Shown one piece after another: positions 9,735-39,617 of a DNA stretch of 64,000 bases. Each line of letters opens with the position of its first letter. Position 1 is the stretch's first letter. This stretch comes from Streptantibioticus ferralitis (GTDB lineage: Bacteria; Actinomycetota; Actinomycetes; Streptomycetales; Streptomycetaceae). A model generated the notes under the pieces. The model had not been told where the DNA came from. It was given only the letters and a program-made list of their open reading frames with translations, and searched no databases. The stretch spans positions 124,001 through 188,000 of the forward strand of contig NZ_JARHTQ010000012.1 in the NCBI RefSeq assembly GCF_029223525.1, given 5' to 3'. The position numbers were made by a program, and so were the translations under genes.

Positions 9735-11237
9735 TCAGCCCTTGAACCACCGCACCGGGCGTGGCGCCAGGTTCTGGTAGACGTGCTTGGCCTCGCGGTA
9801 CTCGTCCAGCCCGGAGGGCCCAAGCTCGCGGCCGATGCCGGACTTGCCGAAGCCGCCCCACTCGGCCTGCGGGAGGTACGGGTGGTAGTCGTTGATCCAC
9901 ACCGTGCCGTGCCGCATCCGTCCGGCGACCCGCCGGGCGCGGCCCGCGTCGGCGGTCCATACCGCGCCCGCCAGGCCGTACTCGGTGTCGTTGGCGAGCG
10001 CCACCGCCTCGTCCTCGGTGTGGAAGGTCTCCACGGTGAGGATCGGCCCGAAGGTCTCCTCGCGGACCACCCGCATCTCGCCGTGGCACAGGTCGAGGAC
10101 GGTGGGCGAGTAGAAGTAGCCGGTCGCCGGGCGGGTTTCGCTGGGCTCGGGGCGTGCGCCGCCGCAGCGCAGGACGGCGCCCTCGGCGAGCGCGGAGGCC
10201 ACATACGCTTCGGTCTTGGCGAGTTGCGCGGCGGAGACCAGCGGTCCGCACTCCACACCGGGCTCGGTGCCCCGGCCGAGCTTGATCCGCTCGGCGCGGC
10301 GGGCGAGTTCGGCCACGAAGCGGTCGCGCACCGGCTCCTCGATGATCAGCCGCGCACCGGCCGAGCAGACCTGGCCGCTGTGGATGAAGGCCGCGTTGAG
10401 CGCCTGGTCGACGGCGGTGTCGAAGCCCTCGTCGGTGGCGCAGGCGTCGGCGAAGACCACGTTCGGGTTCTTGCCGCCCAGTTCCAGGGCCACCTTCTTG
10501 ACGGTGGGCGCGGCGGCCTGCATGACCTTGGTGCCGCTGGCCAGTCCACCGGTGAAGGAGACCAGGTCCACGTCCGGGTGCTCGGCGAGCCGTGCGCCCA
10601 CCGGGTCGCCCGTGCCGGTGACCACATTGCCGACCCCGGTCGGCAGACCGGCCTCGACCAGCAGCTTCATCAGGTGGACGGTGGACAGCGGGGTGATCTC
10701 GCTGGGCTTGATCACGAAGGTGTTGCCCGCCACCAGCGCCGGAGCGATCTTCCAGCTGGCCTGCAGGAGGGGGTAGTTCCAGGGAGTGATCAGCGCGCAC
10801 ACGCCGACCGGCTCATGGACGACGACGCTGTGGATCTCCGGCGATCCCGCGTCGACGACCCGGCCGCCGCCCTCGTTCAGCGCGAGGTCGGCGAAGTAGC
10901 GGAAGGCGTTGGTCACGTCGTCCACGTCGACGCGGCCCTCTTCGAGGGTCTTTCCGGTGTCCCGGCTCTCGATCAGCGCGATCGCCTCGCGGTCGCGCTG
11001 CAGCAGGTCGGCGACGCGCCGCAGCAGCGCGGCCCGCTCGGCGACCGGCGTACGCGGCCAGGACCCGGCGTCGAACGCACGACGGGCGGCGGCCACCGCC
11101 GCGTCCGTGTCGGCCACGCCGCCCTCGGCCACCACGGCCAGCGTCTTGGCGTCGGCGGGGTCGAGGACCTCCCGCTGCGCGTTGGACGCGGCAGCGCGCC
11201 ACACCCCGTCCACATGAATGGTCTCGACTGCCGACAC
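9735..11237 (-). CDS. betB: Betaine aldehyde dehydrogenase (aldehyde dehydrogenase family)
   Basis: The 500-residue protein has the aldehyde dehydrogenase marks: the general base Glu in KVALELGGKNPNVV, the catalytic Cys in HSGQVCSAGARL, and the NAD-binding segment SFTGGLASGTKVMQ. It probably oxidises betaine aldehyde to glycine betaine, because a choline-dehydrogenase-like gene and a betaine transporter follow in the same direction. It is the first gene of the operon. I see no BetI-type repressor gene nearby. Other amino-aldehydes are possible substrates. Confidence 0.88.
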   Translation of the reverse strand: MSAVETIHVDGVWRAAASNAQREVLDPADAKTLAVVAEGGVADTDAAVAAARRAFDAGSWPRTPVAERAALLRRVADLLQRDREAIALIESRDTGKTLEEGRVDVDDVTNAFRYFADLALNEGGGRVVDAGSPEIHSVVVHEPVGVCALITPWNYPLLQASWKIAPALVAGNTFVIKPSEITPLSTVHLMKLLVEAGLPTGVGNVVTGTGDPVGARLAEHPDVDLVSFTGGLASGTKVMQAAAPTVKKVALELGGKNPNVVFADACATDEGFDTAVDQALNAAFIHSGQVCSAGARLIIEEPVRDRFVAELARRAERIKLGRGTEPGVECGPLVSAAQLAKTEAYVASALAEGAVLRCGGARPEPSETRPATGYFYSPTVLDLCHGEMRVVREETFGPILTVETFHTEDEAVALANDTEYGLAGAVWTADAGRARRVAGRMRHGTVWINDYHPYLPQAEWGGFGKSGIGRELGPSGLDEYREAKHVYQNLAPRPVRWFKG

Positions 11238-11338
11238 GTCTGTTCTGCCTTCCGATTTCCGATTCGCCCTGGCTGGCTCACCAGCGGCAGGGACCCCTAA
11301 CCGGAAGACGTATGGGTATGCGTGTTTGATTAAAAAGA

Positions 11339-11352
11339 GTGACGCTAGTCAC
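11339..11352. promoter_or_regulatory. Small palindrome upstream of the betaine operon
   Basis: GTGAC-GCTA-GTCAC lies about 100 bases upstream of betB, next to an AT-rich patch (11325-11336) that stands out in this GC-rich DNA. It may be the operator and promoter region of the betaine operon. No regulator can be named. Confidence 0.35.
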
Positions 11353-11385
11353 CTTTCGGCCATTGCGCGGCGCCTTGCCTGAGCC

Positions 11386-11424
11386 GGGGCGGCCGGAGCC
11401 GGACACGACGTCTCCGGCCGCCCC
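11386..11424 (-). terminator. Terminator hairpin after small secreted protein gene
   Basis: A perfect 13-bp stem (GGGGCGGCCGGAG at 11386-11398 with its complement at 11412-11424) lies 14 bases past the stop of the small secreted protein gene, as expected for a GC-rich actinobacterial terminator. Confidence 0.7.
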
Positions 11425-11438
11425 TCTGGGCGGGTGGC

Positions 11439-11738
11439 TCAGCGGTTGGTCCACAGGTTCCAGAAGACGGTTCCGTTGGCGCACTGGTACTGGTCCCAGG
11501 CGCCGCGCTGGACGCCCTGCTGCCCGTCGCTGTTGCAGCCGTCGAACGTCCAGTACTTGCCGCGGTCGATCCACCCCGCGGGCGCCTGGTCCGCGTGGTG
11601 CGTCGCCACGGCGTGGTGCGCGGCCACGGCGTGGTGCTGCGGTGCGGCCTGGGCGGCCGGTGCCATGAAGCCGATGCCCGCCGCGGCGGCCAGGGCCGCC
11701 GCCAGCACGGCGGCCTTCGTGATGAACGGAGATGTCAT
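11439..11738 (-). CDS. Small secreted protein, unknown function
   Basis: The 99-residue protein has a signal peptide (about residues 1-32, ending AQA), a short His/Ala-rich linker with repeated AxxHHA units, and a compact C-terminal part rich in Trp, Gly and Asn with two cysteines that may form a disulfide (GCNSDGQQG and YQCANGT). ATG 11738 is chosen over an ATG four codons upstream because GGGGAGAAAG lies directly before it. It stands alone between two terminators or divergent genes. The His-rich linker could bind metal; the function is not known. Confidence 0.65.
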   Translation of the reverse strand: MTSPFITKAAVLAAALAAAAGIGFMAPAAQAAPQHHAVAAHHAVATHHADQAPAGWIDRGKYWTFDGCNSDGQQGVQRGAWDQYQCANGTVFWNLWTNR

Positions 11739-11889
11739 CTTTCTCCCCATTTGTCGTGGGCTGGTTTGCCTCGGTCTTGTTTGTCGCGGTCTTGTTTGTC
11801 ATGGTCTGGGTGCTGCTGTGATGTTCACCAGGTACACGTCCGGGGGACCGCCGCCGTATGACACCGGCAACCATGATTTTTTTCGACCC

Positions 11890-12294
11890 TCAGGCCGTCA
11901 GCCGTTTGTGGTGCAGCAGCAACGCGCGGCAGGCGCACGCCAGTTGCTCCGCGTGTACGACGGCCGAGGCCAGCCCCGTACCCGCATCGCCGCGCAGTTT
12001 CCTGCGCGCCTCACCGATTCCGGCGAGCGCGAGGGCGCGTACGAGGTCGTCCTTCGGCTGGGCGCAGGCCAACGTCTCGACCTCCGGGATCAGCAGCATG
12101 ATGTGGCCGCGCAGGCAGAGGACCAGGTCCTCGATCTCCTCGTACCGGGGGTAGACGGCGCGTTCGCCGAGGACCGCATCGACGGTCTCGGCGATCGTCT
12201 GCACGTCCACGGGCGCCGCGTCTGTGAACGTCCGCTCTCCGCCAACTCGCCTTACGGGAACCGGCATTCGATCGGGTGGGCTTTCAGCGTTCAT
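11890..12294 (-). CDS. DUF6415 family protein
   Basis: This 134-residue, mostly helical protein resembles the small Streptomyces DUF6415 proteins often found beside XRE/DUF5753 regulators. It has no signal peptide or membrane segment. A central block, EIEDLVLCLRGHIMLLIPEV, and a C-terminal helix rich in Ala, Cys and Leu are typical. It is divergent from the XRE regulator that starts 148 bases away. A regulatory or accessory role with that regulator is a guess from position. Confidence 0.6.
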   Translation of the reverse strand: MNAESPPDRMPVPVRRVGGERTFTDAAPVDVQTIAETVDAVLGERAVYPRYEEIEDLVLCLRGHIMLLIPEVETLACAQPKDDLVRALALAGIGEARRKLRGDAGTGLASAVVHAEQLACACRALLLHHKRLTA

Positions 12295-12441
12295 GCCCCG
12301 ACAGTGCCCTGGTCAGGGCTAGCGTTTCGAGACTGACGCGGGGTACGGGTGCGCTGGCGCGGTGTGCGCTGGTTCTGTGCGGTGGTTGCGCTGTCGTTGC
12401 GCAGTGCGCGCTTCGTGCTCATCGGTGAGGGGAGAATCGAC

Positions 12442-13248
12442 GTGAGCGAAGCACCGGTCAGCCTGCGGCTCATTGGCGCGCAGGTCAAGGCCCTGAGGCA
12501 GCGGGCCGGACTGACGCAGGCAGAACTCGGCAAGAAAGTCGGGTACTCGGAGTCCCAGATCCGCAGCATCGAAGCGGGAAGAAGGACCCCTAAGCCCGAC
12601 CTTCTCGTTCGGTTCGAGGAGTTGTTCAAGGTGCCGGGGGTCTTCACGTCGGTAGCGGATGAGCTGCTGAAGGAACCGCACCCGTCGTGGTTCCAGCCGT
12701 TCGCGGTGTTGGAGGCGGAAGCGGTCGGGCTGTCCGCGTACGACAACCAACTCGTCAACGGCCTGCTGCAGACCGAGGCGTACGCACGCGCCGTACACAT
12801 CGAGCACCGCCCAGCCTTGGACGACCAGGAGATCGAACTCCGAGTCGACGCTCGACTAGCCCGACAGAAGCTGCTCACGCGCGTACCAGCCGCATCCCTG
12901 AGCTTCATTTTCGAAGAGGTCCTGCTACGCCGCTCCGTCGGTGGCCGGGAGGTCATGCGCGAGCAACTGGAGCGCCTGTTGGACGTAGCACAGATGCGGC
13001 ACGTCGAAATCCAAGTGATGCCGACCGAGCGCCCAGGCCACGCCGGGCTCGAAGGTCCACTGACCGTGGTCGAACCGCCTGAGAAAGAGTTGTGCGCGTA
13101 CCTAGAGGTCCAGAACATTGGCCGCCTGATCACGGACCGTCCAACCGTCAGCAAGATCGCCCAACGGTATGCGATCCTGCGGAGCCAGGCCCTTACACCC
13201 GATGAATCGGTCAGCTTCATCAAGCAGTTGGCAACGGGAGCGACATGA
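12442..13248 (+). CDS. XRE-family HTH regulator with DUF5753
   Basis: The 268-residue protein has an N-terminal Cro/C1-type HTH (about 10-65: LRQRAGLTQAELGKKVGYSE, then IRSIEAGRRTPKPDLL) and a DUF5753 domain (about 90-265) in which the EQLERLL...RHVEIQVMP pattern is clear. GTG 12442 is preceded by GGGGAGAA. The stop overlaps the DUF397 start as ATGA. Such pairs resemble the BldB/AbaA-type regulators of antibiotic production and sporulation, with DUF397 as the likely partner. A second such pair lies at 48876-49942. Confidence 0.9.
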   Translation: MSEAPVSLRLIGAQVKALRQRAGLTQAELGKKVGYSESQIRSIEAGRRTPKPDLLVRFEELFKVPGVFTSVADELLKEPHPSWFQPFAVLEAEAVGLSAYDNQLVNGLLQTEAYARAVHIEHRPALDDQEIELRVDARLARQKLLTRVPAASLSFIFEEVLLRRSVGGREVMREQLERLLDVAQMRHVEIQVMPTERPGHAGLEGPLTVVEPPEKELCAYLEVQNIGRLITDRPTVSKIAQRYAILRSQALTPDESVSFIKQLATGAT

Positions 13249-29425: not shown

Positions 29426-30637
29426 TCAGACGGCGGGCAGCGCCGGAACGGCCGGCAGACCGGGGATGGCGGCCGGGCCGGTCAGACCGGAGGCGGCGGC
29501 GCCCCCGGGAAGCGAGGCGACGACCAGCTTGACGTTGTAGACGGCGCCGGCGCCGATCACGGTGACATGGCTGGTGACGTTGCGGACGGTGTTCTGCGCG
29601 AACGGGGCCGCCTGACCGGCGACGCCCTGGGCCAGCGGGTTCACCCGCGCGACCACGTGCCCGGCGAACGGAACGGTGTCACCCGCCACGCCGGTCGCGA
29701 ACGGCTTCACCTGGTTGACCACACCGTTCGCGAACGGCGGCACCTCGGTGGCCTCGGTCTGCGCCAGCGTGCCGACACCGGTGACGGCGCCCTGGGCGAT
29801 CGGCAGCACGTGCGTCACCGCGCGCTGCGCCAGCGGCGGCAGCACGTCGGCGGTCACCTGCGCCACGGTGGGGGTCACCTCGGTGGTGGCGGCCTGGACG
29901 GCGCCCGGGACGGCGGGCACGGACGGCACGGCGGGCACGGCGGGCAGGCCCGCGGTCGGCAAACCGGTCGGCAGGCCCGACGGCACGCTCGGCACGGCGG
30001 GCAGGCCGGACGGGAGCTTGGCGGCCTTGGCCAGCTTGGCCAGGGCGTCCAGCCGGGAACCCATGGCCAGGACGCCGTTCGACAGGTCGGTGGCCTGGCC
30101 CGGGTTCGGCAGCGCGGGCAGCGACGGCACCGACGGGAGCCGACCGGCGTGCTTCAGCACACCGGTGGCGGCACCGGTCGGCAGGCCCTTGCCGGTCACG
30201 CCGTGCGCGGCGTGCGTCAGCGTGCTGACGGCGCCGGTGGGGGCGGCCGGAATGCCGACCGGCAGGCCCTTGACCTGGCCGAGGCCCTTGCCCTTGCCCT
30301 TGGCGGCCTGCTGCGCCTGCAGTGCGTGCACGGTGTGGCCGGAGCCGGTGAGGCCCTCGACGGACTGCGCGGTACCGGTGACGGTGCCGGTCACCGAGCC
30401 GGTGGCGGGCAGCTGGCCGGTCACCGAGCTGACGGCGCCGGTGGCGGTGCCGGTCAGGGAACCGGTGGCGGGCAGCTGGCCGGTCACCGAGCCAAGGGTG
30501 CCGGTGACGGCGCCTACCGGGTTGCCGGTGCCGGGAACGGCGGGCAGCACGGCCGCGTTGGCGGCGACGTTGCCCAGCGCCCAGATGCCGGAAGCGGCGG
30601 CGGCGACGATGACGGCACGACGGATGCTCGTACGCAT
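29426..30637 (-). CDS. Secreted low-complexity repeat protein
   Basis: The 403-residue protein has a signal peptide (residues 1-28, ending ANA). The rest is built almost entirely from Val, Ala, Gly, Pro, Thr and Leu. Residues about 35-85 repeat VTGQLPATGSxTGT; about 150-235 hold LPAVPSVPSGLPTG-like units; about 285-365 carry an imperfect repeat of about 11 residues, PFAxGVVxxVx. ATG 30637 has AAGGAG. There is no catalytic motif. Such composition suggests an extended or self-assembling surface protein. A neighbouring secreted gene (30929-31777) may work with it. Confidence 0.7.
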   Translation of the reverse strand: MRTSIRRAVIVAAAASGIWALGNVAANAAVLPAVPGTGNPVGAVTGTLGSVTGQLPATGSLTGTATGAVSSVTGQLPATGSVTGTVTGTAQSVEGLTGSGHTVHALQAQQAAKGKGKGLGQVKGLPVGIPAAPTGAVSTLTHAAHGVTGKGLPTGAATGVLKHAGRLPSVPSLPALPNPGQATDLSNGVLAMGSRLDALAKLAKAAKLPSGLPAVPSVPSGLPTGLPTAGLPAVPAVPSVPAVPGAVQAATTEVTPTVAQVTADVLPPLAQRAVTHVLPIAQGAVTGVGTLAQTEATEVPPFANGVVNQVKPFATGVAGDTVPFAGHVVARVNPLAQGVAGQAAPFAQNTVRNVTSHVTVIGAGAVYNVKLVVASLPGGAAASGLTGPAAIPGLPAVPALPAV

Positions 30638-30928
30638 GGGGAACTGCTCCTTGCGGATCATGGATCTGCGCATTGCCGATCAAGTCGGCGATGAGCGAAG
30701 GAAATTGACGGGACGTCACTCGCGAGAGGACGGGACGGCCCGCGGGTAAGCCGGACTTCGGCGAGCGGACTCGCCAGGGGATTCACGAGATGGCTCGACC
30801 ACGCGATGCGTTGGGAGCGAAGGGCGGGGCGCCCGTACGGGATCCGAGACCGGTGAAGATCGACCGGCGGCGGTCCGTCACAGGGGCGCGACCACCCGTG
30901 CCAACGCACCGGGTGGTGCCGGGACCGC

Positions 30929-31777
30929 CTAGTCCGGCTGGACGGAGACGCTCGTCGACCGACGCGTCGGCGACGAACCGTTCGCGGGACGCATCACGCC
31001 CGCGCTGAGGTGGAACTGCGCGCCGGCCGCGAACAGCGCGGCGTGCGCGTCACCCGTGTGGTGGGTGGGACCGTCACCCTCGCAGGGTTGGCCACAGTGG
31101 CCTGCCGGGACCGGCAGTTGGGCCGGGCCCTGCTGTACCTGCCGCTGCTGCGCGAGGTGCGCGAGCTGCGGTGCGGCGCCGTGTGCCGCCGCCGGGAAGC
31201 GGTCCGCCCGGGGTCCGCTGACCCGCGTGGCGGATGTGGCCGCACTGCTGGAGTGCGGGCGGCCGGCCTGGTGTCCTACCGGAGTTGGCGCGCTCGTGAC
31301 CGGGCTGCCGAGGCCGCCGTGCCCAGCGCCGGTGGCGCCGACGATGGGCGACGTGGCCTGTCCAGCCGCGTCTTGGACGGAACCGAGCAGGCCGACAACC
31401 GGCCGTACGGTCCTGGTGGCCGCCGCCACCGTGTCCTTGACGCCCCGGTCAGCCTGCTGCGCGCCAGCCTCGAACTGCTGCGCACCGGCCGTGAACTGCC
31501 GTGCGGCGCTCTGCGCGGCATCCCCGACCAGCGTCGGTCGCGGAGCCGCGTCAGCGGCACCCAGGGGTGCCCGCGCGGACGGCATGGACACAGCCTCAGG
31601 TGAGTCCGCGTGCGCCTGCCCGCTCAGGATGAAGGCGAGCGCCAGGAATCCCCCGAGCAGCAGTGCCACCTGCAGCGCACGCCGAGCAGCCGTGGCGCGC
31701 GGACGCACAACGGCAGCAGGCAGGGCAAGCGGAGCAGACAGCAAAGCGGGGGAACCTTCCCGTACGGAATGACACAC
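30929..31777 (-). CDS. Membrane-anchored or secreted protein, unknown function
   Basis: The 282-residue protein has a long basic N-terminus, a hydrophobic helix at about 35-56 (LQVALLLGGFLALAFILSG) ending in an AHADS cleavage-like site, and then a polar Ala/Gln/His-rich body. Residues about 92-112 repeat AGAQQFEAGAQQ. The distal half is rich in His and Pro. The preceding 291 bases (30638-30928) hold the promoter of the repeat protein and no gene. I recognise no family. It is followed at a distance by the repeat protein on the same strand, so the two may be co-regulated. Confidence 0.6.
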   Translation of the reverse strand: MCHSVREGSPALLSAPLALPAAVVRPRATAARRALQVALLLGGFLALAFILSGQAHADSPEAVSMPSARAPLGAADAAPRPTLVGDAAQSAARQFTAGAQQFEAGAQQADRGVKDTVAAATRTVRPVVGLLGSVQDAAGQATSPIVGATGAGHGGLGSPVTSAPTPVGHQAGRPHSSSAATSATRVSGPRADRFPAAAHGAAPQLAHLAQQRQVQQGPAQLPVPAGHCGQPCEGDGPTHHTGDAHAALFAAGAQFHLSAGVMRPANGSSPTRRSTSVSVQPD

Positions 31778-31843: not shown

Positions 31844-33019
31844 CTACTGATGCGGCATCATGTCCGTTATGGGCGGTGCGTCGTCCGGCATGGGCAGCGG
31901 TCGCTTCTCGATCGCGGCCGCCATCACCTCCGGGAACAGGTCCGGGGTGCAGGCGAAGGCGGGTGCGCCGAGCGCGGCGAGCCCGGCCGCGTGATCCCGG
32001 TCGTACGACGGCGCTCCCTCGTCGGACAGCGCGAGCAGCGCCACGAACTGCACGCCCGACGCCTTCATCGCCGCCACCCGCTTGAGCATCTCGTGGCGTA
32101 TGCCGCCCTCGTACAGGTCGCTGATCAGCACGACGACGGTCTCGCTCGGCCGGGTGATCAGCGACTGGCAGTAGGCGAGCGCCCGGTTGATGTCCGTGCC
32201 GCCGCCGAGCTGGGTGCCGAACAACACGTCGACGGGGTCGTCGAGTTGGTCGGTCAGATCGACCACGGAGGTGTCGAACACGACGAGCTTGGTGGCGATG
32301 GACCGCATCGAGGCCAGTACGGCGCCGAAGACGGAGGCGTAGACGACGGAGGCCGCCATCGACCCGGACTGGTCGACGCAGAGCACCACGTCCTTGCGCA
32401 CGCCCCGCGCGGCGCGCCCATAGCCGACCAGCCGCTCGGGGACGACCGTGCGGTGTTCGGGAAGGTAGTTCTTGAGGTTGCCGCGGATCGTGCGGTTCCA
32501 GTCGATGTCGCGGTGCCGCGGCCGTTGCACGCGGGCGGACCGGTCCAGGGCACCGGTCAGGGTCGCCCGGGTGCGGGTCGCCAGGCGCGCCTCCAGGTCC
32601 GCCACCACCTTGCGCACCACGGTCCGCGCCGTCTCCTTGGTGGTCTCCGGCATCGCCTGGTGCAGCGAGAGCAGGGTGCCGACCAGATGCACATCGGCCT
32701 CGACGGCCTCCAGCATCTCGGGCTCCAGCAGCAGCGCGGACAGGCCGAGCCGGTCGATGGCGTCGCGCTGCATCACCTGCACCACCGAGGTGGGGAAGTA
32801 CCTGCGGATGTCCCCCAGCCAGCGGGCCACCCGCGGCGCCGAGCCGCCGAGCCCCGCCGTCCGGCCGGAGCCGGAATGGCCGCCGATGCCGCCGCCGTAG
32901 AGCGCGGCCAGGGCGGCGTCCATCTTCGCGTCCTGCCCGGCCGGCGTCCGGCAGCTGCCGTCGGCCTCGCCACCCAGCACCAGCCGCCAGCGGCGCAGCC
33001 GTTCGTCATCCGTCGTCAT
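31844..33019 (-). CDS. VWA (CoxE-like) domain protein
   Basis: The 391-residue protein has a helical N-terminal half and a C-terminal von Willebrand A domain. The metal-binding MIDAS is intact: DQSGS at residues 216-220, a Thr in GGGTDINRA, and Asp in VLISDLYEGG. VWA proteins of this type partner MoxR AAA ATPases in remodelling or metal-insertion complexes. It is the last gene of the MoxR-DUF5682-VWA operon, with an ATGA overlap to DUF5682, which gives a fixed stoichiometry. It is likely cytoplasmic, since no signal peptide is seen. Confidence 0.88.
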   Translation of the reverse strand: MTTDDERLRRWRLVLGGEADGSCRTPAGQDAKMDAALAALYGGGIGGHSGSGRTAGLGGSAPRVARWLGDIRRYFPTSVVQVMQRDAIDRLGLSALLLEPEMLEAVEADVHLVGTLLSLHQAMPETTKETARTVVRKVVADLEARLATRTRATLTGALDRSARVQRPRHRDIDWNRTIRGNLKNYLPEHRTVVPERLVGYGRAARGVRKDVVLCVDQSGSMAASVVYASVFGAVLASMRSIATKLVVFDTSVVDLTDQLDDPVDVLFGTQLGGGTDINRALAYCQSLITRPSETVVVLISDLYEGGIRHEMLKRVAAMKASGVQFVALLALSDEGAPSYDRDHAAGLAALGAPAFACTPDLFPEVMAAAIEKRPLPMPDDAPPITDMMPHQ

Positions 33020-35364
33020 GCGCTGCTCCCCTCCGTGTGGCCCCCTGCCGCCTGATCGCCGTGCCCGTGCGGCCCCAACAGCAGCCGGAGCGTGGGCAGT
33101 ACGGCGTCGGCGCGGGCGGCGTCCAGTCCTTCGCCGAAGCCGGCCGCGCCCGCGGCGGCGGCCTGCCGTCCGGCCGCCTGCGGCCCGCGCCGCACCAACT
33201 CCCCGAGCGTGCGCCGCACACCGGGCTCGAACTCGGCGAACGTGCGCCGCACCAACGGCAGTACGTCGGTGAACGCCTCGTCCGGCACCGCCGACAGCCA
33301 GCCGTCGACCAGCGCCAGCAGCCGCTCGTCGTGGATGAGCAGCATCCCGCCGCCGGACAGGAAGCCGTCGATCCATCCGGCGGCGTCCCGGGGCGCGGTG
33401 CCGGGTGACAGGGCGAGCCCCATCAGCCACTCGGCCCGCGCCGCGTCCAACTGCCCGTCGTCCAGCAGCAGCCGGGCGGCGCGGCCGCGTATCGCCCCCG
33501 GGACCGCGCTGTCCCGGGTCGCGAGCGAGGTCAGTACGGCGGTCCAGCGCTCCCGTGGCGGTTCGGCCGCCAGCAGCCCGATCGCCGTGTGCACCGCGTC
33601 GAGATGGCCGCGCATCTCCACGGCACCCGCGTCGTCCAGGTGTGCGCAGGCGGGCGGCAGACCGACGCAGACGCGTAGCGCGACGCCCTCGGCGACCTCG
33701 CGCAGCGCACCCGCGTCGGTACCGCGTACGTCGCCGTACCGCACGGACCGCACCAGCGCGGGCAGCGCCTGCGCGAGATGGCCGACGTCGGCGTCGAGGG
33801 CGGCTCTGTCGGCCAGTACCCGCATCACGGTGGGCAGGGCGCCGGGCAACGCCGCCAGCAGACAGCGCTCGGCGAGCGTGGTGACCTCGGCGAGCTGGGC
33901 GGCGCCCATGGCGGTGTCCTCGGCCTTCGCCGTGGCGGCCGACTCCACCGTCGTGCCCCACACGCCTGCTTCGGCCACCCGTACCGCCAGCTCCGGCTCC
34001 CAGCGCAGTCGCCAACTCTCCCGGAACGTACCGGCGTTGGCGGTACGGGAGCGCGTCGGCTCGCCCCAGTGGACGCCGAGCAGGGCCAGCCGGTGCAGCA
34101 GTCGGCTGCGTCCGGCGTCGGTGTCCCTGCGCAGGTCGAGGTCCAACTCCCGCTCGGCCGCCTCGGGTTTGAGGCGCAGCGAACGCTGCTGGCGGGCCAG
34201 GTCCCGGGCGAGCGGTACGGCGGGGGCGGTGTCGGGGACCTCGCCGAGTTCGTCGCCCACCACAAGGCGGTCATGGATGAGCGCGAGCGGCACATCGGAG
34301 CCGTCGCACAGCACGGCCCGCACCGCGTCCATGGTCTCGCCCAGCCCGGCCAGCGGTCGGCCGCGCATCGCGGCCAGCGTCTCGGCGAGCCGGACCGCCT
34401 CGATGACATGGGCCGACGAGACCGGGCGGTCCTCGTCCCTGAGCAGTCCGGCGACCGTGGTCATCCAGCGCACCAGGGGGCGGTCCGGGGCGGTGAACAG
34501 ATGCCGGTACCAACCGGGCGAGTCGATTCCGGCGCCGTAGCCGCTGCGTCGGCTCAGCCTGCGGTGCGTCCACGGAACCCAGGTGATCTCGGCCTTCACC
34601 CTGGGCAGGCCCTTGAGCGCCTGGCGGTCGGCGGTCGCGGTGGCGGCACAGGCCAACGCCGGTACGTGCCAGGCGCCGCAGACCACGGCGGTGCGGTCGT
34701 ACTCGCGGGTGGCCTCGCGGATCCGCAGCCGCATGTGCGCTTCCCGTACCGGGTCGTCGCGGTGCCCGCCGTCCGCGTACGCCTCGCGCAGCGCGCCCAT
34801 GGCCTCGGCGAGCACGGCGAACGGGGCCAGCGCGCCGCCGCCCGCGCCGGTGTCCGTGCGGTGCTCGACGGCGTCCTCCCACCAGCGCTCCGGATCGTCG
34901 TATCCGGCGGCCCCGGCAAGCGCGGCCAGTGGATCGATCCGGGCGTCGCCCTCCTCGGCAGCCTGGTCGCGCAGGGCCAGGCTGTGCGCGGCGGGCAGGT
35001 CGACGAAGCGCACCGGTACGCCTCGCGAGACGGCCCAGCGGATCGCCACCCACTCCGGCGAGAACTCCGCGAAGGGCCAGAACGCGGCCCGCGCCGGATC
35101 GTCGACCGCGTGCGCCAGCAACGCCACCGGCGGCCGCAGCCCCTCCTGCGCCGCGATCCCCACCACCGCGTCGGCCTCGGGCGGTCCCTCGACCAGCACC
35201 ACCTGCGGCTCGTACCACTCCAGCGCACCCCGCACCGCCCGCGCCGACCCGGGCCCGTGGTGCCGCACCCCGAGCAGCTGAAGCCGCTCCGGGCAGGAGC
35301 CCGAGCCCCGCACGGGCCCAGGCTCCGCCGAAGCCGTGCGGTCCGCGCGCAGCGCGGTGCTCAT
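33016..35364 (-). CDS. DUF5682 protein, TraB/TIKI-like N-terminal domain
   Basis: The 782-residue protein is the middle gene of the MoxR operon. Residues 29-70 (QLLGVRHHGPGSARAV, then PQVVLVEGPPEAD) and 205-240 (MRLRIREATREYD, then AVVCGAWHVPAL with His233) follow the pattern of TraB/TIKI/EreA-like proteins: an early G-x-x-H, an acidic residue after a hydrophobic strand, and a late G-x-x-H. TIKI is a metalloprotease, so a hydrolase is conceivable; that is my inference. The C-terminal 500 residues are helical and may bind partners. It overlaps both neighbours by 4 bases. Confidence 0.8.
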   Translation of the reverse strand: MSTALRADRTASAEPGPVRGSGSCPERLQLLGVRHHGPGSARAVRGALEWYEPQVVLVEGPPEADAVVGIAAQEGLRPPVALLAHAVDDPARAAFWPFAEFSPEWVAIRWAVSRGVPVRFVDLPAAHSLALRDQAAEEGDARIDPLAALAGAAGYDDPERWWEDAVEHRTDTGAGGGALAPFAVLAEAMGALREAYADGGHRDDPVREAHMRLRIREATREYDRTAVVCGAWHVPALACAATATADRQALKGLPRVKAEITWVPWTHRRLSRRSGYGAGIDSPGWYRHLFTAPDRPLVRWMTTVAGLLRDEDRPVSSAHVIEAVRLAETLAAMRGRPLAGLGETMDAVRAVLCDGSDVPLALIHDRLVVGDELGEVPDTAPAVPLARDLARQQRSLRLKPEAAERELDLDLRRDTDAGRSRLLHRLALLGVHWGEPTRSRTANAGTFRESWRLRWEPELAVRVAEAGVWGTTVESAATAKAEDTAMGAAQLAEVTTLAERCLLAALPGALPTVMRVLADRAALDADVGHLAQALPALVRSVRYGDVRGTDAGALREVAEGVALRVCVGLPPACAHLDDAGAVEMRGHLDAVHTAIGLLAAEPPRERWTAVLTSLATRDSAVPGAIRGRAARLLLDDGQLDAARAEWLMGLALSPGTAPRDAAGWIDGFLSGGGMLLIHDERLLALVDGWLSAVPDEAFTDVLPLVRRTFAEFEPGVRRTLGELVRRGPQAAGRQAAAAGAAGFGEGLDAARADAVLPTLRLLLGPHGHGDQAAGGHTEGSSA

Positions 35365-36446
35365 ACGGTCACCTCCCGGCAGGCGCGGTAGAAGTCCTTC
35401 CAGCCGTCGCGTTCGCGCACCACGGACTCCAGGTACTCCTGCCAGATGACGCGGTCCGCGGCGGGGTCGCGTACCACCGCGCCCAGGATTCCGGCGGCGA
35501 CGTCGCTGGGGCGCAGCACACCGTCGCCGAAGTGGGCGGACAGCGCCAGGCCACCGGTGACCACGGAGATCGCCTCCGCGGTGGAGAGCGTGCCGGACGG
35601 GGACTTCACCTTGGTACGGCCATCGGCCGTGATGCCGTCGCGCAGTTCGCGGAAGACGGTGACGACGCGGCGGATCTCGTCGGTGCCCTCGGGCACCGAC
35701 GGCAGGTCGATGCCGCTGCCGATCTGGTCCACGCGCCGCGCGACGATGTCGACCTCGTCCTCGACGGTGGCGGGCAGCGGCAGCACGACCGTGTTGAAGC
35801 GGCGGCGCAGCGCGCTGGACAGGTCGTTGACCCCCCGGTCGCGGTCGTTGGCGGTGGCGATGAGGTTGAAGCCGCGTACGGCCATGACCTCCTCGCCCAA
35901 CTCCGGTATCGGCAGGGTCTTCTCGGACAGGATGGTGATGAGGGTGTCCTGGACGTCGGCCGGGATGCGGGTCAGTTCCTCGACCCGGGCGACGCGGCCA
36001 CCGGACATGGCGCGCATGACCGGACCGGGCACCAGCGCATCGCGGCTGGGGCCGTGCGCGAGCAGCTGGGAGTAGTTCCAGCCGTAGCGGATCGCCTCCT
36101 CCGGCGTGCCCGCCGTGCCCTGGACCAGCAGCGTGGAGTCACCGCTGACGGCCGCCGCCAGGTGCTCGGACACCCAGGTCTTGGCGGTGCCCGGCACGCC
36201 GAGCAGCAGCAGGGCGCGGTCGGTGGCGAGGGTGGAGACGGCGACCTCGACGATCCGCCGCGGGCCGACGTACTTCGGGCTGATCACCGTGCCGTCCGGC
36301 AGCGTGCCGCCCAGCAGGTACGTCGCCACGGCCCACGGCGAGAGGTTCCAACGGGCAGGGCGCGGGCGGTCGTCGGCGGCCGCCAGCGCCGCCAGCTCCT
36401 CGGCGAAGGCGTCCTCGGCGTGTGGCCGCAGGGCCTGTTCGGTCAT
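35361..36446 (-). CDS. MoxR-family AAA+ ATPase
   Basis: The 361-residue ATPase has Walker A GVPGTAKT (83-90), a divergent Walker B (RVARVEELTRIP, where Glu-Glu replaces the usual Asp-Glu), sensor 1 Asn200 in IATANDRDRG and the Arg region SALRRRFNTV. MoxR ATPases act as chaperone-like machines with VWA proteins, here encoded two genes downstream. It is the first gene of a three-gene operon. The start at 36446 is preceded by GGGGGAG and by a near-match to the DNA-damage promoter motif. Confidence 0.9.
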   Translation of the reverse strand: MTEQALRPHAEDAFAEELAALAAADDRPRPARWNLSPWAVATYLLGGTLPDGTVISPKYVGPRRIVEVAVSTLATDRALLLLGVPGTAKTWVSEHLAAAVSGDSTLLVQGTAGTPEEAIRYGWNYSQLLAHGPSRDALVPGPVMRAMSGGRVARVEELTRIPADVQDTLITILSEKTLPIPELGEEVMAVRGFNLIATANDRDRGVNDLSSALRRRFNTVVLPLPATVEDEVDIVARRVDQIGSGIDLPSVPEGTDEIRRVVTVFRELRDGITADGRTKVKSPSGTLSTAEAISVVTGGLALSAHFGDGVLRPSDVAAGILGAVVRDPAADRVIWQEYLESVVRERDGWKDFYRACREVTV

Positions 36447-36489
36447 GGCTCCCCCAACGATGAGTCCGTGCAAGAAGCTTGCGGATCCC

Positions 36490-36512
36490 ACACTGCACCA
36501 GGCCACTGACAA
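36490..36512 (-). promoter_or_regulatory. PafBC-type DNA-damage promoter motif (MoxR operon)
   Basis: Reading leftwards, TTGTCAGTG (36512-36504), 8 bases, then CAGTGT (36495-36490) fits TTGTCRGTG-N8-TAnnnT with one mismatch in the -10. It lies 43 bases before the MoxR start and forms the left arm of an 11-bp perfect inverted repeat. Confidence 0.7.
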
Positions 36513-36550
36513 TCCCTCACGACACATGGGAAACCCCAGGTCAGGGCGAA

Positions 36551-36573
36551 TTGTCAGTGGTCGCTCGTACCGT
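36551..36573 (+). promoter_or_regulatory. PafBC-type DNA-damage promoter motif (SWIM operon)
   Basis: TTGTCAGTG (36551-36559), 8 bases, then TACCGT (36568-36573) is a full match to TTGTCRGTG-N8-TAnnnT. The -10 ends 7 bases before ATG 36581, so the mRNA should begin at or next to the start codon. Confidence 0.8.
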
Positions 36574-36580
36574 CGTGGGC

Positions 36581-37981
36581 ATGGAGGACACCGAGCAGCG
36601 GTGGTCGGCGGAGCAGGTCCTCGCGCTTGCTCCTGACGCCGCGTCACAAAAGGCCGGTACCCGGCTCGCCGTGCCCGGCCCGTGGTCCGGCACGGGCACG
36701 GCGGGCGCGTCGGAGGACGGCGGCGGAGCGGTGGTGTGGGGGCTGTGCGCGGGCAGCGGCAGCAGGCCGTACCGCACGGCCGTCGACCTCACGGGTCCCG
36801 CGTTCAACTGCACCTGCCCGAGCCGCAAATTCCCGTGCAAGCACGCCGTGGGGCTGCTGCTGCTCTGGGCTCGGGGCGATGCGGCGACGGACGCGGACTC
36901 GGGGACGGGCATCGGCCCGGCGGAGCCGCCGGACTGGGTCGCCCAGTGGCAGGCCAAGCGCACGGCCGCGCGCGAGAAGTCCCCGGCCGGTGGCGGTGCG
37001 GGTGCGGCCGATCCGCAGGCCGCCCGCAGACGCGCCGAGCGGCGCGCCCAGCGGGTGGCGGCGGGCGCGGCCGAGCTGGAGCAGCGGCTGACCGACCAGT
37101 TGCGCACCGGGCTCGCCGCGGGCCGGGAGGACCAACGCGTCTGGGACACAGTGGCCGCCCGCATGATCGACGCCCAGGCGCCCGGACTCGCCGCGCGGGT
37201 CAGGGAGTTGGGCGGGATACCGGGATCCGGGGGCGACTGGCCCTCCCGGCTGCTGGAGGAGTACGGGATGCTGCACCTCCTCGCCCGCGGCTGCCTCGCC
37301 CTCGACGCCGGGCCCGACGCACTGCCCGGCGCCCTGTCCGACACGGTCCGCTCCCGGGTCGGCTACACCACCGCCGCCGCGGAGTTGCTGGCCGGTCCGA
37401 CCCTGCGGGACAGCTGGCTCGTCCTCGCCCAGCAGGACAGCACCGAGGGGACGATGACCACCCGCCGCATCTGGCTGCGCGGTGCGCGCAGCGGTCGCCC
37501 GGCCCTGCTGCTCTCGTTCGGTGCGGCGGGCCGGGCCCCCGAGGTGTCACTGCCGGTCGGCCGGTCCCTCGACGCGGAGCTGGCCTACCACCCCGGCGCG
37601 GTGCCGCTGCGGGCCGCACTGGGCCCACAGCACGGCTCGCCGACCCCCGGACACCTACCGCCCGGCGTGCCGGTCGGGGAGGCGCTGTCCGGGTACGGGG
37701 AGGCGCTGCGCGCCGACCCCTGGCTGGACGAGTGGCCGGTGGTGCTGTCCGGGGTGGTGCCGATACCGGATCCGGGCGGCTGGCAACTGGCCGACGTCGA
37801 CACGGATTCGGCGCTGCCGGTGGATCCGCGGCGGCTGGGGCGGCCTGGCCTGTGGCGTCTCGCCGCGGTCTCCGGCGGCCACCCGGTCACCGTCTTCGGC
37901 ACCGTGGGCCACCGCGGCTTCACCCCGCTGACCACCTGGCCGGCAGGCGACGGCCGGGCGGGAGAGGCAGTGGCGCTGTGA
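36581..37981 (+). CDS. SWIM zinc-finger protein
   Basis: The 466-residue protein has a SWIM zinc finger at residues 77-88, CTCPSRKFPCKH (Cys77, Cys79, Cys86, His88), a fold that binds DNA or protein. The rest is helical and Ala/Arg-rich with no enzymatic motif. ATG 36581 is chosen because a DNA-damage promoter places the transcript start there. DUF5691 follows 31 bases later. The pair is divergent from the MoxR-DUF5682-VWA operon and shares its regulatory gap, so the five proteins probably work together. Confidence 0.85.
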   Translation: MEDTEQRWSAEQVLALAPDAASQKAGTRLAVPGPWSGTGTAGASEDGGGAVVWGLCAGSGSRPYRTAVDLTGPAFNCTCPSRKFPCKHAVGLLLLWARGDAATDADSGTGIGPAEPPDWVAQWQAKRTAAREKSPAGGGAGAADPQAARRRAERRAQRVAAGAAELEQRLTDQLRTGLAAGREDQRVWDTVAARMIDAQAPGLAARVRELGGIPGSGGDWPSRLLEEYGMLHLLARGCLALDAGPDALPGALSDTVRSRVGYTTAAAELLAGPTLRDSWLVLAQQDSTEGTMTTRRIWLRGARSGRPALLLSFGAAGRAPEVSLPVGRSLDAELAYHPGAVPLRAALGPQHGSPTPGHLPPGVPVGEALSGYGEALRADPWLDEWPVVLSGVVPIPDPGGWQLADVDTDSALPVDPRRLGRPGLWRLAAVSGGHPVTVFGTVGHRGFTPLTTWPAGDGRAGEAVAL

Positions 37982-38012
37982 CAGGAGGAGAGGAACGAAC
38001 GGGAGGGGAACC

Positions 38013-39617
38013 GTGACCATCACCGAACACACGGCACCGGCCTGGGAGGAACTGGTCTCCGCCGCGCTGCTGGGTACCACCAGGCGCAGACCGCCGGTCG
38101 GAGTCGGCCATGAACACGATGACGCGGCGTTCGCGCTGCTGGACGCGGCCGCGGTCGCCACCGTGCGCCGCCGCGCCGGACTGCTACCGGCCCGCAGCGC
38201 GCCGCGCCCCGCCCCGGCACCCGACGACCCCCGCCCACTGCCACCACCGGCCGCCCAGGCCAGGCTGCGGGCACTGCTCAACGACCGTACGGGCAACGGC
38301 GCTTCGGCCGGCGGGCGACGCGGATCGACGCCCAGCCTAGGGGAGTTGCTGCCGCAGTGGCTGGCGGCGGCCGGGCAGCACGGCTACCGCGCCCCGGACG
38401 CGGCTCTTCCGGACCTCCTCGACGCCGCCAGAGCGCGCACCGACCTACGGCCGGACGCGCTCACCCTGGCCGGGCCGCGGGCTTTGTGGCTCGCCGAGTT
38501 GAACCCGGACTGGAAGTTCGCCCTCCGCTCGGGCAACCGCGGCGCGGCGGGAGATGCCGCCGCCGATCCGGAGGCGGCCCGGCGGCTGTGGGAGGAGGGC
38601 CTGTTCGCCGAGCGCGTCGCGCTGCTCACCAGTGTGCGGGAGCGCGATCCGGCGGCCGGGCTCGCACTGCTCGGCAGCAGTTGGGCACAGGAGCGGGCCG
38701 AGGACCGGCTGCTGTTCCTGGACGCGCTGCGCACCGGCCTGGGCCGGGACGACGAACCGTTCCTCGAACGGTCGCTGACCGACCGCAGCCGCAACGTGCG
38801 TGCCACCGCCGCCGAACTGCTCTCCGCGCTGCCCGGCTCGGCACTCGCCCACCGCATGGCGGAACGGGCCTTGTCCTGCGTCTCGTTGGACCGCACGGGG
38901 GTCGGTCCACGCATAGCAGTCGAGGCACCGTACGCCTGCGACCCGGCGATGGAACGGGACGGGGTCGCCGCCAGCCCGCCACCGGGTCGCGGTGAACGGG
39001 CCTGGTGGCTGGGCCAGTTGGCGGACAGCTCACCGCTCGGGGTCTGGCCTGCCCAGTTCGGCGGCCGTACCCCGGGGCAGATAGTGGCGCTACCCGTGGC
39101 CGACGACTGGCAGCCGGACCTGCACGCAGCGTGGTGCCGCGCGGCGGTGCGGCAGCGGGACGCCGAATGGGCACGCGCCCTGCTGGGGCCGCCGCCGGTA
39201 CCGGCCGGGGCGGTCACGACCGCCGGGGACCCGGCGAAACTGCTCTCCGTACTGCCCGAGGGCGAACGGGCCGTCTGGGTGGCCGAGTTCATCGCCGGGC
39301 ACGGCCTGTCCGAGGCGTTCCAGTTGCTCGGCGCCTGCGCCGTGCCGTGGGCCGAGCCGCTCGGCCGAGCGGTGGTGGACGCGCTCGACATCGCCCGCGA
39401 GGCGGGCAGCTACCCCTGGAGCTTCAGCGGCGTGATGGGCCTGGCCGAACGCTGCCTGGACCCGGCCCTCGCAGACCGCCTGGAACCTCTCACCACCACC
39501 CAGGAAGACCCAGGTGACGCGTCCCCCGGCGCCGGAAGCTACTGGTCCGAGGCATTCCAACGCCTCATCACCACCCTCCGCCTGAGAGCAACGATGCGGA
39601 CCGAACTACAGCAATAG
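38013..39617 (+). CDS. DUF5691 family protein
   Basis: The 534-residue protein begins WEELVSAALLGTTRRRPP, a family hallmark, and has helical repeat-like segments in the middle (RNVRATAAELLSALPGS resembles a HEAT repeat). It has no signal peptide, membrane helix or catalytic motif. GTG 38013 follows GGGAGGGG. It sits directly behind the SWIM gene. I infer a scaffold or adaptor in the MoxR/VWA system; the biochemical role is unknown. Confidence 0.82.
   Translation: MTITEHTAPAWEELVSAALLGTTRRRPPVGVGHEHDDAAFALLDAAAVATVRRRAGLLPARSAPRPAPAPDDPRPLPPPAAQARLRALLNDRTGNGASAGGRRGSTPSLGELLPQWLAAAGQHGYRAPDAALPDLLDAARARTDLRPDALTLAGPRALWLAELNPDWKFALRSGNRGAAGDAAADPEAARRLWEEGLFAERVALLTSVRERDPAAGLALLGSSWAQERAEDRLLFLDALRTGLGRDDEPFLERSLTDRSRNVRATAAELLSALPGSALAHRMAERALSCVSLDRTGVGPRIAVEAPYACDPAMERDGVAASPPPGRGERAWWLGQLADSSPLGVWPAQFGGRTPGQIVALPVADDWQPDLHAAWCRAAVRQRDAEWARALLGPPPVPAGAVTTAGDPAKLLSVLPEGERAVWVAEFIAGHGLSEAFQLLGACAVPWAEPLGRAVVDALDIAREAGSYPWSFSGVMGLAERCLDPALADRLEPLTTTQEDPGDASPGAGSYWSEAFQRLITTLRLRATMRTELQQ

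Follow-up and report, generated by a model that had tools for sequence, protein, structure and literature searches.

The window analysed here is a 64,000-nt stretch of the Streptantibioticus ferralitis genome, and the locus under study occupies positions 31844–39617. It contains five open reading frames, open and intact and with correct bounds. An earlier note made from the letters alone had described an AAA+/MoxR gene, a DUF5682 gene and a VWA gene joined by 4-base overlaps and diverging from a SWIM gene and a DUF5691 gene; the ORFs, Pfam matches and coordinates agree with this. The genes and the promoter sites between them are as follows.

31844–33019, minus strand: VWA protein of the CoxE/YehP type (Pfam VWA_CoxE, E=7e-61)
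33016–35364, minus strand: DUF5682 protein, YehM family (Pfam DUF5682, E=2.9e-291)
35361–36446, minus strand: MoxR AAA+ ATPase, YehL subfamily (Pfam AAA_5, E=3e-37)
36490–36512, minus strand: RecA-NDp (PafBC-type) site of the MoxR arm, TTGTCAGTG-GCCTGGTG-CAGTGT, 43 nt before the moxR ATG
36551–36573, plus strand: RecA-NDp site of the SWIM arm, TTGTCAGTG-GTCGCTCG-TACCGT, 7 nt before the SWIM ATG
36581–37981, plus strand: SWIM zinc-finger protein (Pfam SWIM, E=2.7e-5)
38013–39617, plus strand: DUF5691 protein (Pfam DUF5691, E=7e-177)

The MoxR, DUF5682 and VWA genes lie on the minus strand and the SWIM and DUF5691 genes on the plus strand, with 134 bp between the two divergent arms. Consecutive minus-strand genes share exactly 4 bp, at 33016–33019 and at 35361–35364. 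Four of the families score far above the Pfam cut-off and SWIM just above it (24.0 bits versus 19.6). The S. ferralitis genome has one DUF5682 gene. Adjoining the module are two minus-strand genes (29426–30673 and 30929–31777) for secreted-looking low-complexity proteins rich in Ala, Val, Pro and Gly; the protein encoded at 30929–31777 has no Pfam match.

The MoxR protein has a Walker A motif (83–90), a Walker B-like VEE, sensor 1 and an RRR finger. The VWA protein, in which the earlier note had read a MIDAS, has the full set of MIDAS residues in its sequence (D216-x-S-x-S, T275, D301). The DUF5682 protein has an N-terminal alpha/beta region followed by a helical solenoid (predicted structure m129c85a49eb5, mean pLDDT 70). 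Within the N-terminal region, R34-H35-H36, E59, D122, R207-E208 and H233 are invariant in an alignment of eight diverse sequences (A2), so a catalytic role is possible; the protein may be a scaffold or a hydrolase. The label ‘TraB/TIKI-like’, which the earlier note gave this protein, was not confirmed. The resemblance consists of the RHHxP / E / GxxH pattern alone: Pfam ChaN (Tiki superfamily) matches weakly in one of eight members (E=0.12), and hhalign matches the TraB-family protein YbaP without significance. A fold search returned mostly alpha-solenoids, none of them significant, and was dominated by the solenoid part of the protein.

The SWIM protein carries its CxC..CxH motif at residues 77–88, then a helical middle and a C-terminal beta domain (model m464bd010772c, mean pLDDT 77). 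The zinc ligands are invariant among its Deinococcus and Methylosinus relatives. The structure search found no PDB match with E<0.001 for either the DUF5682 or the SWIM model. Many of the weak matches to the SWIM model are OB-fold or ssDNA-binding proteins (SSB, RPA, LEF-3, HIN-200, RecO), all with E>0.05, and we take this predicted likeness as only a hint. The DUF5691 protein is probably a HEAT-like alpha-helical repeat; its HEAT match is sub-threshold (E=0.037).

The RecA-NDp promoter consensus, which we take to be TTGTCRGTG-N8-TANNNT, fits the divergent gap in motif and spacing before both transcripts, and the fit is conserved. This bears out the suggestion in the earlier note of a damage-type control region. 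RecA-NDp promoters are present at Streptomyces recA and SCO6735 (PMC5087735) and are used by PafBC in mycobacteria (PMC6789036; PMC8223512). The genome holds 22 perfect matches to the motif, the SWIM-side site among them, against 0 for the reversed-pattern control, so the sites are more than chance. Genes behind them include recA, ruvC, uracil-DNA glycosylase (ung), uvrB, an AlkZ-like glycosylase, dnaX, a PD-(D/E)XK nuclease and a WGR protein divergent from uvrB; about half of the 22 have no evident repair gene downstream. Nearly all of 41 Streptomycetaceae genomes show an excess of such sites, and some genera have only 2–6. The best match to a LexA box (GAAC-N4-GTTC) in the window's gap has 2 mismatches of 8.

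Both sites are conserved in the Streptomycetaceae: of 64 loci with the divergent layout, 63 keep the MoxR-side site. The SWIM-side site is strict in 54, and nine of the other ten have 1–2 mismatches. Information content in the core is 2.2 bits per base, compared with 0.4–0.5 upstream. In 43 of the 54 strict loci the SWIM-side site stands exactly 7 nt from the start codon, and from this spacing a leaderless SWIM mRNA is predicted. Among actinobacterial loci that are more distant or arranged differently, six of nine have a site with 1–2 mismatches within 130 bp upstream of SWIM, compared with 0.4–0.9% of random windows; two of the six are from the same genus. The MoxR-side site differs from the consensus by a single base in the -10 element. 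All 63 kept MoxR-side sites read CANNNT, never TANNNT, with a conserved TG preceding, and they are perhaps a promoter of different strength.

The genome also encodes PafB and PafC, as tandem WYL genes at the pup-proteasome locus beside pafA, prcAB, pup, dop and mpa-like genes; these names were assigned by reading the sequences. Damage control of the module is thus well supported at the level of sequence. Both arms are very likely damage-inducible, and the promoters would presumably act via PafBC. A study of S. venezuelae reported that its initial search had not found the M. smegmatis PafBC motif to be conserved there (PMC9380542). None of the papers found names the module as a member of the RecA-NDp/PafBC regulon.

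The earlier note had proposed a search for co-occurrence. In an even set of 149 actinobacterial genomes, scored at Pfam cut-offs, DUF5682 occurs in 10 genomes and DUF5691 in nine; nine are shared, one has DUF5682 only and none has DUF5691 only (hypergeometric P=1.3e-13). The two genes are within a few kb of each other in every shared genome. The sole DUF5682-only genome has an E. coli-like gene set. Within the Streptomycetaceae, DUF5682 is found in 118 of 121 genomes, and DUF5691-SWIM diverging from MoxR-DUF5682-VWA is the order kept in most genera sampled; a few genera differ.

Outside the family the five genes form a one-directional operon, SWIM-DUF5691-MoxR-DUF5682-VWA, in other Actinomycetota, Deinococcus taeanensis and Rhizobium. 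Nocardia and Phytohabitans are counted here as five-gene operons although the overlap filter listed no MoxR match in them. In Methylosinus, four of the five are annotated, in the order SWIM-DUF5691-MoxR-DUF5682. The adjacency of MoxR, DUF5682 and VWA is thus syntenic in Streptomycetaceae and three other phyla. Since elsewhere the five genes are one operon, the window's divergent layout is probably derived. In the annotation of Hymenobacter sp. HDW8 one ORF spans both the SWIM region and DUF5691, and this fusion suggests that the two make direct contact; they are separate in H. radiodurans. Co-inheritance and adjacency strongly support the five families as a true module. Some copies, in Methylosinus and Iodobacter, are plasmid-borne and have transposases or a type I restriction system next to them; outside Streptomycetaceae the module may therefore move horizontally.

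The earlier note called the system undescribed, which does not hold for its core. YehL is one of seven named subfamilies of MoxR proteins, chaperone-like factors with VWA partners (PMC3893208). By sequence, the MoxR/DUF5682/VWA core is the YehL subfamily system, known as genes but functionally blank. E. coli YehL is 40% identical to the window MoxR over 356 aa (E=1e-75, pairwise with YehL alone), YehM is 26% identical to the DUF5682 protein over 744 aa and YehP is 36% identical to the VWA protein over 365 aa. The E. coli genes yehL-yehM-yehP-yehQ keep the core order of the window with a SWIM protein gene, yehQ, adjoining. The yeh cluster differs in lacking DUF5691, with yehI (DUF4132) and yehF (WGR) nearby instead, and in lacking the divergent layout and the PafBC-type promoters. 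We considered the window SWIM protein and YehQ as distant homologues and rejected this, since hhalign support is restricted to the zinc motif; the short CxC..CxH stretch aligns and full-length homology was not found. DUF5691 and DUF4132 were likewise rejected as distant homologues, with no hhalign support. None of the papers searched mentions DUF5682 or DUF5691.

Other MoxR systems are less similar. RavA-ViaA likewise pairs a MoxR ATPase with a VWA partner, but belongs to another MoxR subfamily and lacks DUF5682 and SWIM; the ViaA model matches only with E=6e-4, far below the cut-off. CoxD-CoxE shares the VWA_CoxE domain and MoxR partner with the window, whose module differs in having no CO dehydrogenase or Mo/Cu enzyme and in its DNA-repair-type promoter.

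The relatives fall into two architectures: type I, as in the window, combines the core with SWIM and DUF5691, and type II combines it with DUF4132, sometimes with WGR, and a larger SWIM protein. DUF4132 proteins, one with a WGR domain, lie inside or beside YehL-type operons; the window's module has none. Besides E. coli, Sinorhizobium and Iodobacter, type II takes in a second family of loci in Streptomyces, where DUF5682 and VWA are fused. The Streptomycetaceae type II operon (loci L057–L068 and L190) encodes a short DUF4132 protein, a ~1,640-aa protein annotated only as DNA-binding, MoxR, the fused DUF5682-VWA protein and a ~620-aa SWIM protein. A perfect RecA-NDp site precedes the first gene in 7 of 13 Streptomyces type II operons, compared with 0.3% of random windows. 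Because type I and type II are separate loci, the type II promoters are an independent repeat of the association with damage promoters.

Damage regulators also appear near related genes in other phyla. Directly upstream of E. coli yehF, the WGR gene heading the yeh cluster, is the LexA-box-like sequence CTGGATAAAATTACAG. This box precedes yehF and not yehL, which has a terminator-like sequence and no recognisable LexA box before it. The name molR presumably refers to yehF and its neighbours. Listed LexA-regulated genes include molR (PMC11039860; PMC3978071). In D. radiodurans, DdrO has DRA0166 (DUF4132) and DR2173 (WGR) among its targets, and both depend on IrrE for their rise after mitomycin C (PMC8533742). 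Upstream of the Deinococcus, Rhizobium and Methylosinus operons we found no convincing damage motif of three types (RDRM, alphaproteobacterial LexA, E. coli LexA), and isolated GTTC-N7-GTTC matches upstream of the module elsewhere are at chance level.

MoxR rings work with VWA/MIDAS partners on specific complexes. With this background, we propose that the module is a damage-induced YehL-class AAA+ remodelling machine with a nucleoprotein target. After DNA damage, the two divergent RecA-NDp promoters would start both arms, presumably via PafBC. Judging from the families, the YehL-type MoxR ATPase would form a ring, coupled to its target through the VWA MIDAS and the large DUF5682 scaffold. More tentatively, the SWIM-DUF5691 pair, a zinc finger and a probable helical repeat, could serve for recognition and guide the ATPase to nucleoprotein complexes. 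The machine might then remodel or strip proteins at damaged or stalled DNA, and repair could proceed. The five products in all likelihood work together. The explanation as a whole has, in our judgement, an even chance of being right. Nucleoprotein remodelling as the activity is a tentative assignment that falls somewhat short of an even call, and the molecular target of the machine is likewise suggested rather than observed. The role proposed in the earlier note, a complex that would sense or process damaged DNA-protein structures, is conjectural to a similar degree.

The same genes and promoters could serve proteostasis: a machine, working with the pup-proteasome and not acting on DNA, that unfolds or sorts proteins hurt by genotoxic or oxidative stress. 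MoxR proteins are chaperone-like (PMC3893208), PafBC and the proteasome share one locus, and two components resemble helical scaffolds. However, a SWIM zinc finger is present in nearly all versions and WGR-DUF4132 in sister operons, which would point to nucleic acid, and we consider proteostasis rather unlikely. Less probable again is a damage-induced maturase, in which the MoxR/VWA pair would load a metal into, or build a cofactor for, an enzyme needed after damage. The window VWA protein is CoxE-type, CoxD-CoxE act in metal-cluster insertion for CO dehydrogenase (PMC7159879) and the name molR hints at molybdate. But the conserved set includes no metalloenzyme; the gene for a B12-binding mutase subunit that adjoins the module in Streptomycetaceae is its chromosomal neighbour nowhere else. 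The co-regulated genes are DNA repair genes, and the molybdate genes of D. radiodurans are unresponsive alongside its MolR-like genes (PMC8533742).

The self-defence or conflict role raised in the earlier note, akin to the ternary MoxR-vWA systems described by Kaur et al. 2020, is very improbable: the MoxR-VWA pair with a large third component is common to both, the bpMoxR match is weak and sub-threshold and some relatives sit on plasmids near restriction or transposon genes, but the five proteins include no VMAP, iSTAND, beta-propeller or effector component by Pfam and PADLOC, PADLOC and IMG/VR give no match, nearly all Streptomycetaceae carry the module at a conserved position in the chromosome, and PMC7159879 does not contain the terms SWIM, DUF5682, DUF5691 or YehL. 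The only viral relative found is a DUF5682 relative (29% identity) at 10629–12755 of phage record MT835988.1. This record, a 14-kb contig from human faeces that is named ‘Bacteriophage sp.’ and has no annotation, may be bacterial DNA under the wrong label.

For the proposed damage-induced remodelling machine, what is new is the regulation: damage promoters on a YehL-type module of blank function. No function is known for the yehLMPQ genes or the YehL subfamily, even though E. coli K-12 carries them. A recA-type promoter on two paralogous Streptomyces forms, together with LexA or DdrO control of linked or related molR/DUF4132/WGR genes, therefore gives them a specific, cheaply testable role. 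This also speaks for a PafBC-type regulon in Streptomyces, a point left open by a 2022 study. A broader reading, which we hold as possible but doubt more than we believe, is that YehL-type systems are widespread unrecognised DNA-damage effectors, carrying out ATP-driven nucleoprotein remodelling in several phyla. If true, three damage regulators would have gained control of these genes or their partner genes independently: LexA of molR in E. coli, DdrO of DUF4132 in D. radiodurans and PafBC of the two paralogous Streptomyces systems. The effector would then exist in two architectures, SWIM with DUF5691 or SWIM with DUF4132/WGR.

Perfect RecA-NDp sites in S. ferralitis also mark genes beyond the module. 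A WGR-beta-propeller gene diverges from uvrB, each with its own perfect site (loci L022/L023, G000:C99:134966-135657). Two similar-looking proteins of ~210–230 aa with no Pfam match (L005, 1530–2165; L012, 801–1502) are each encoded a few nt behind a perfect site and are candidate new damage-response genes.
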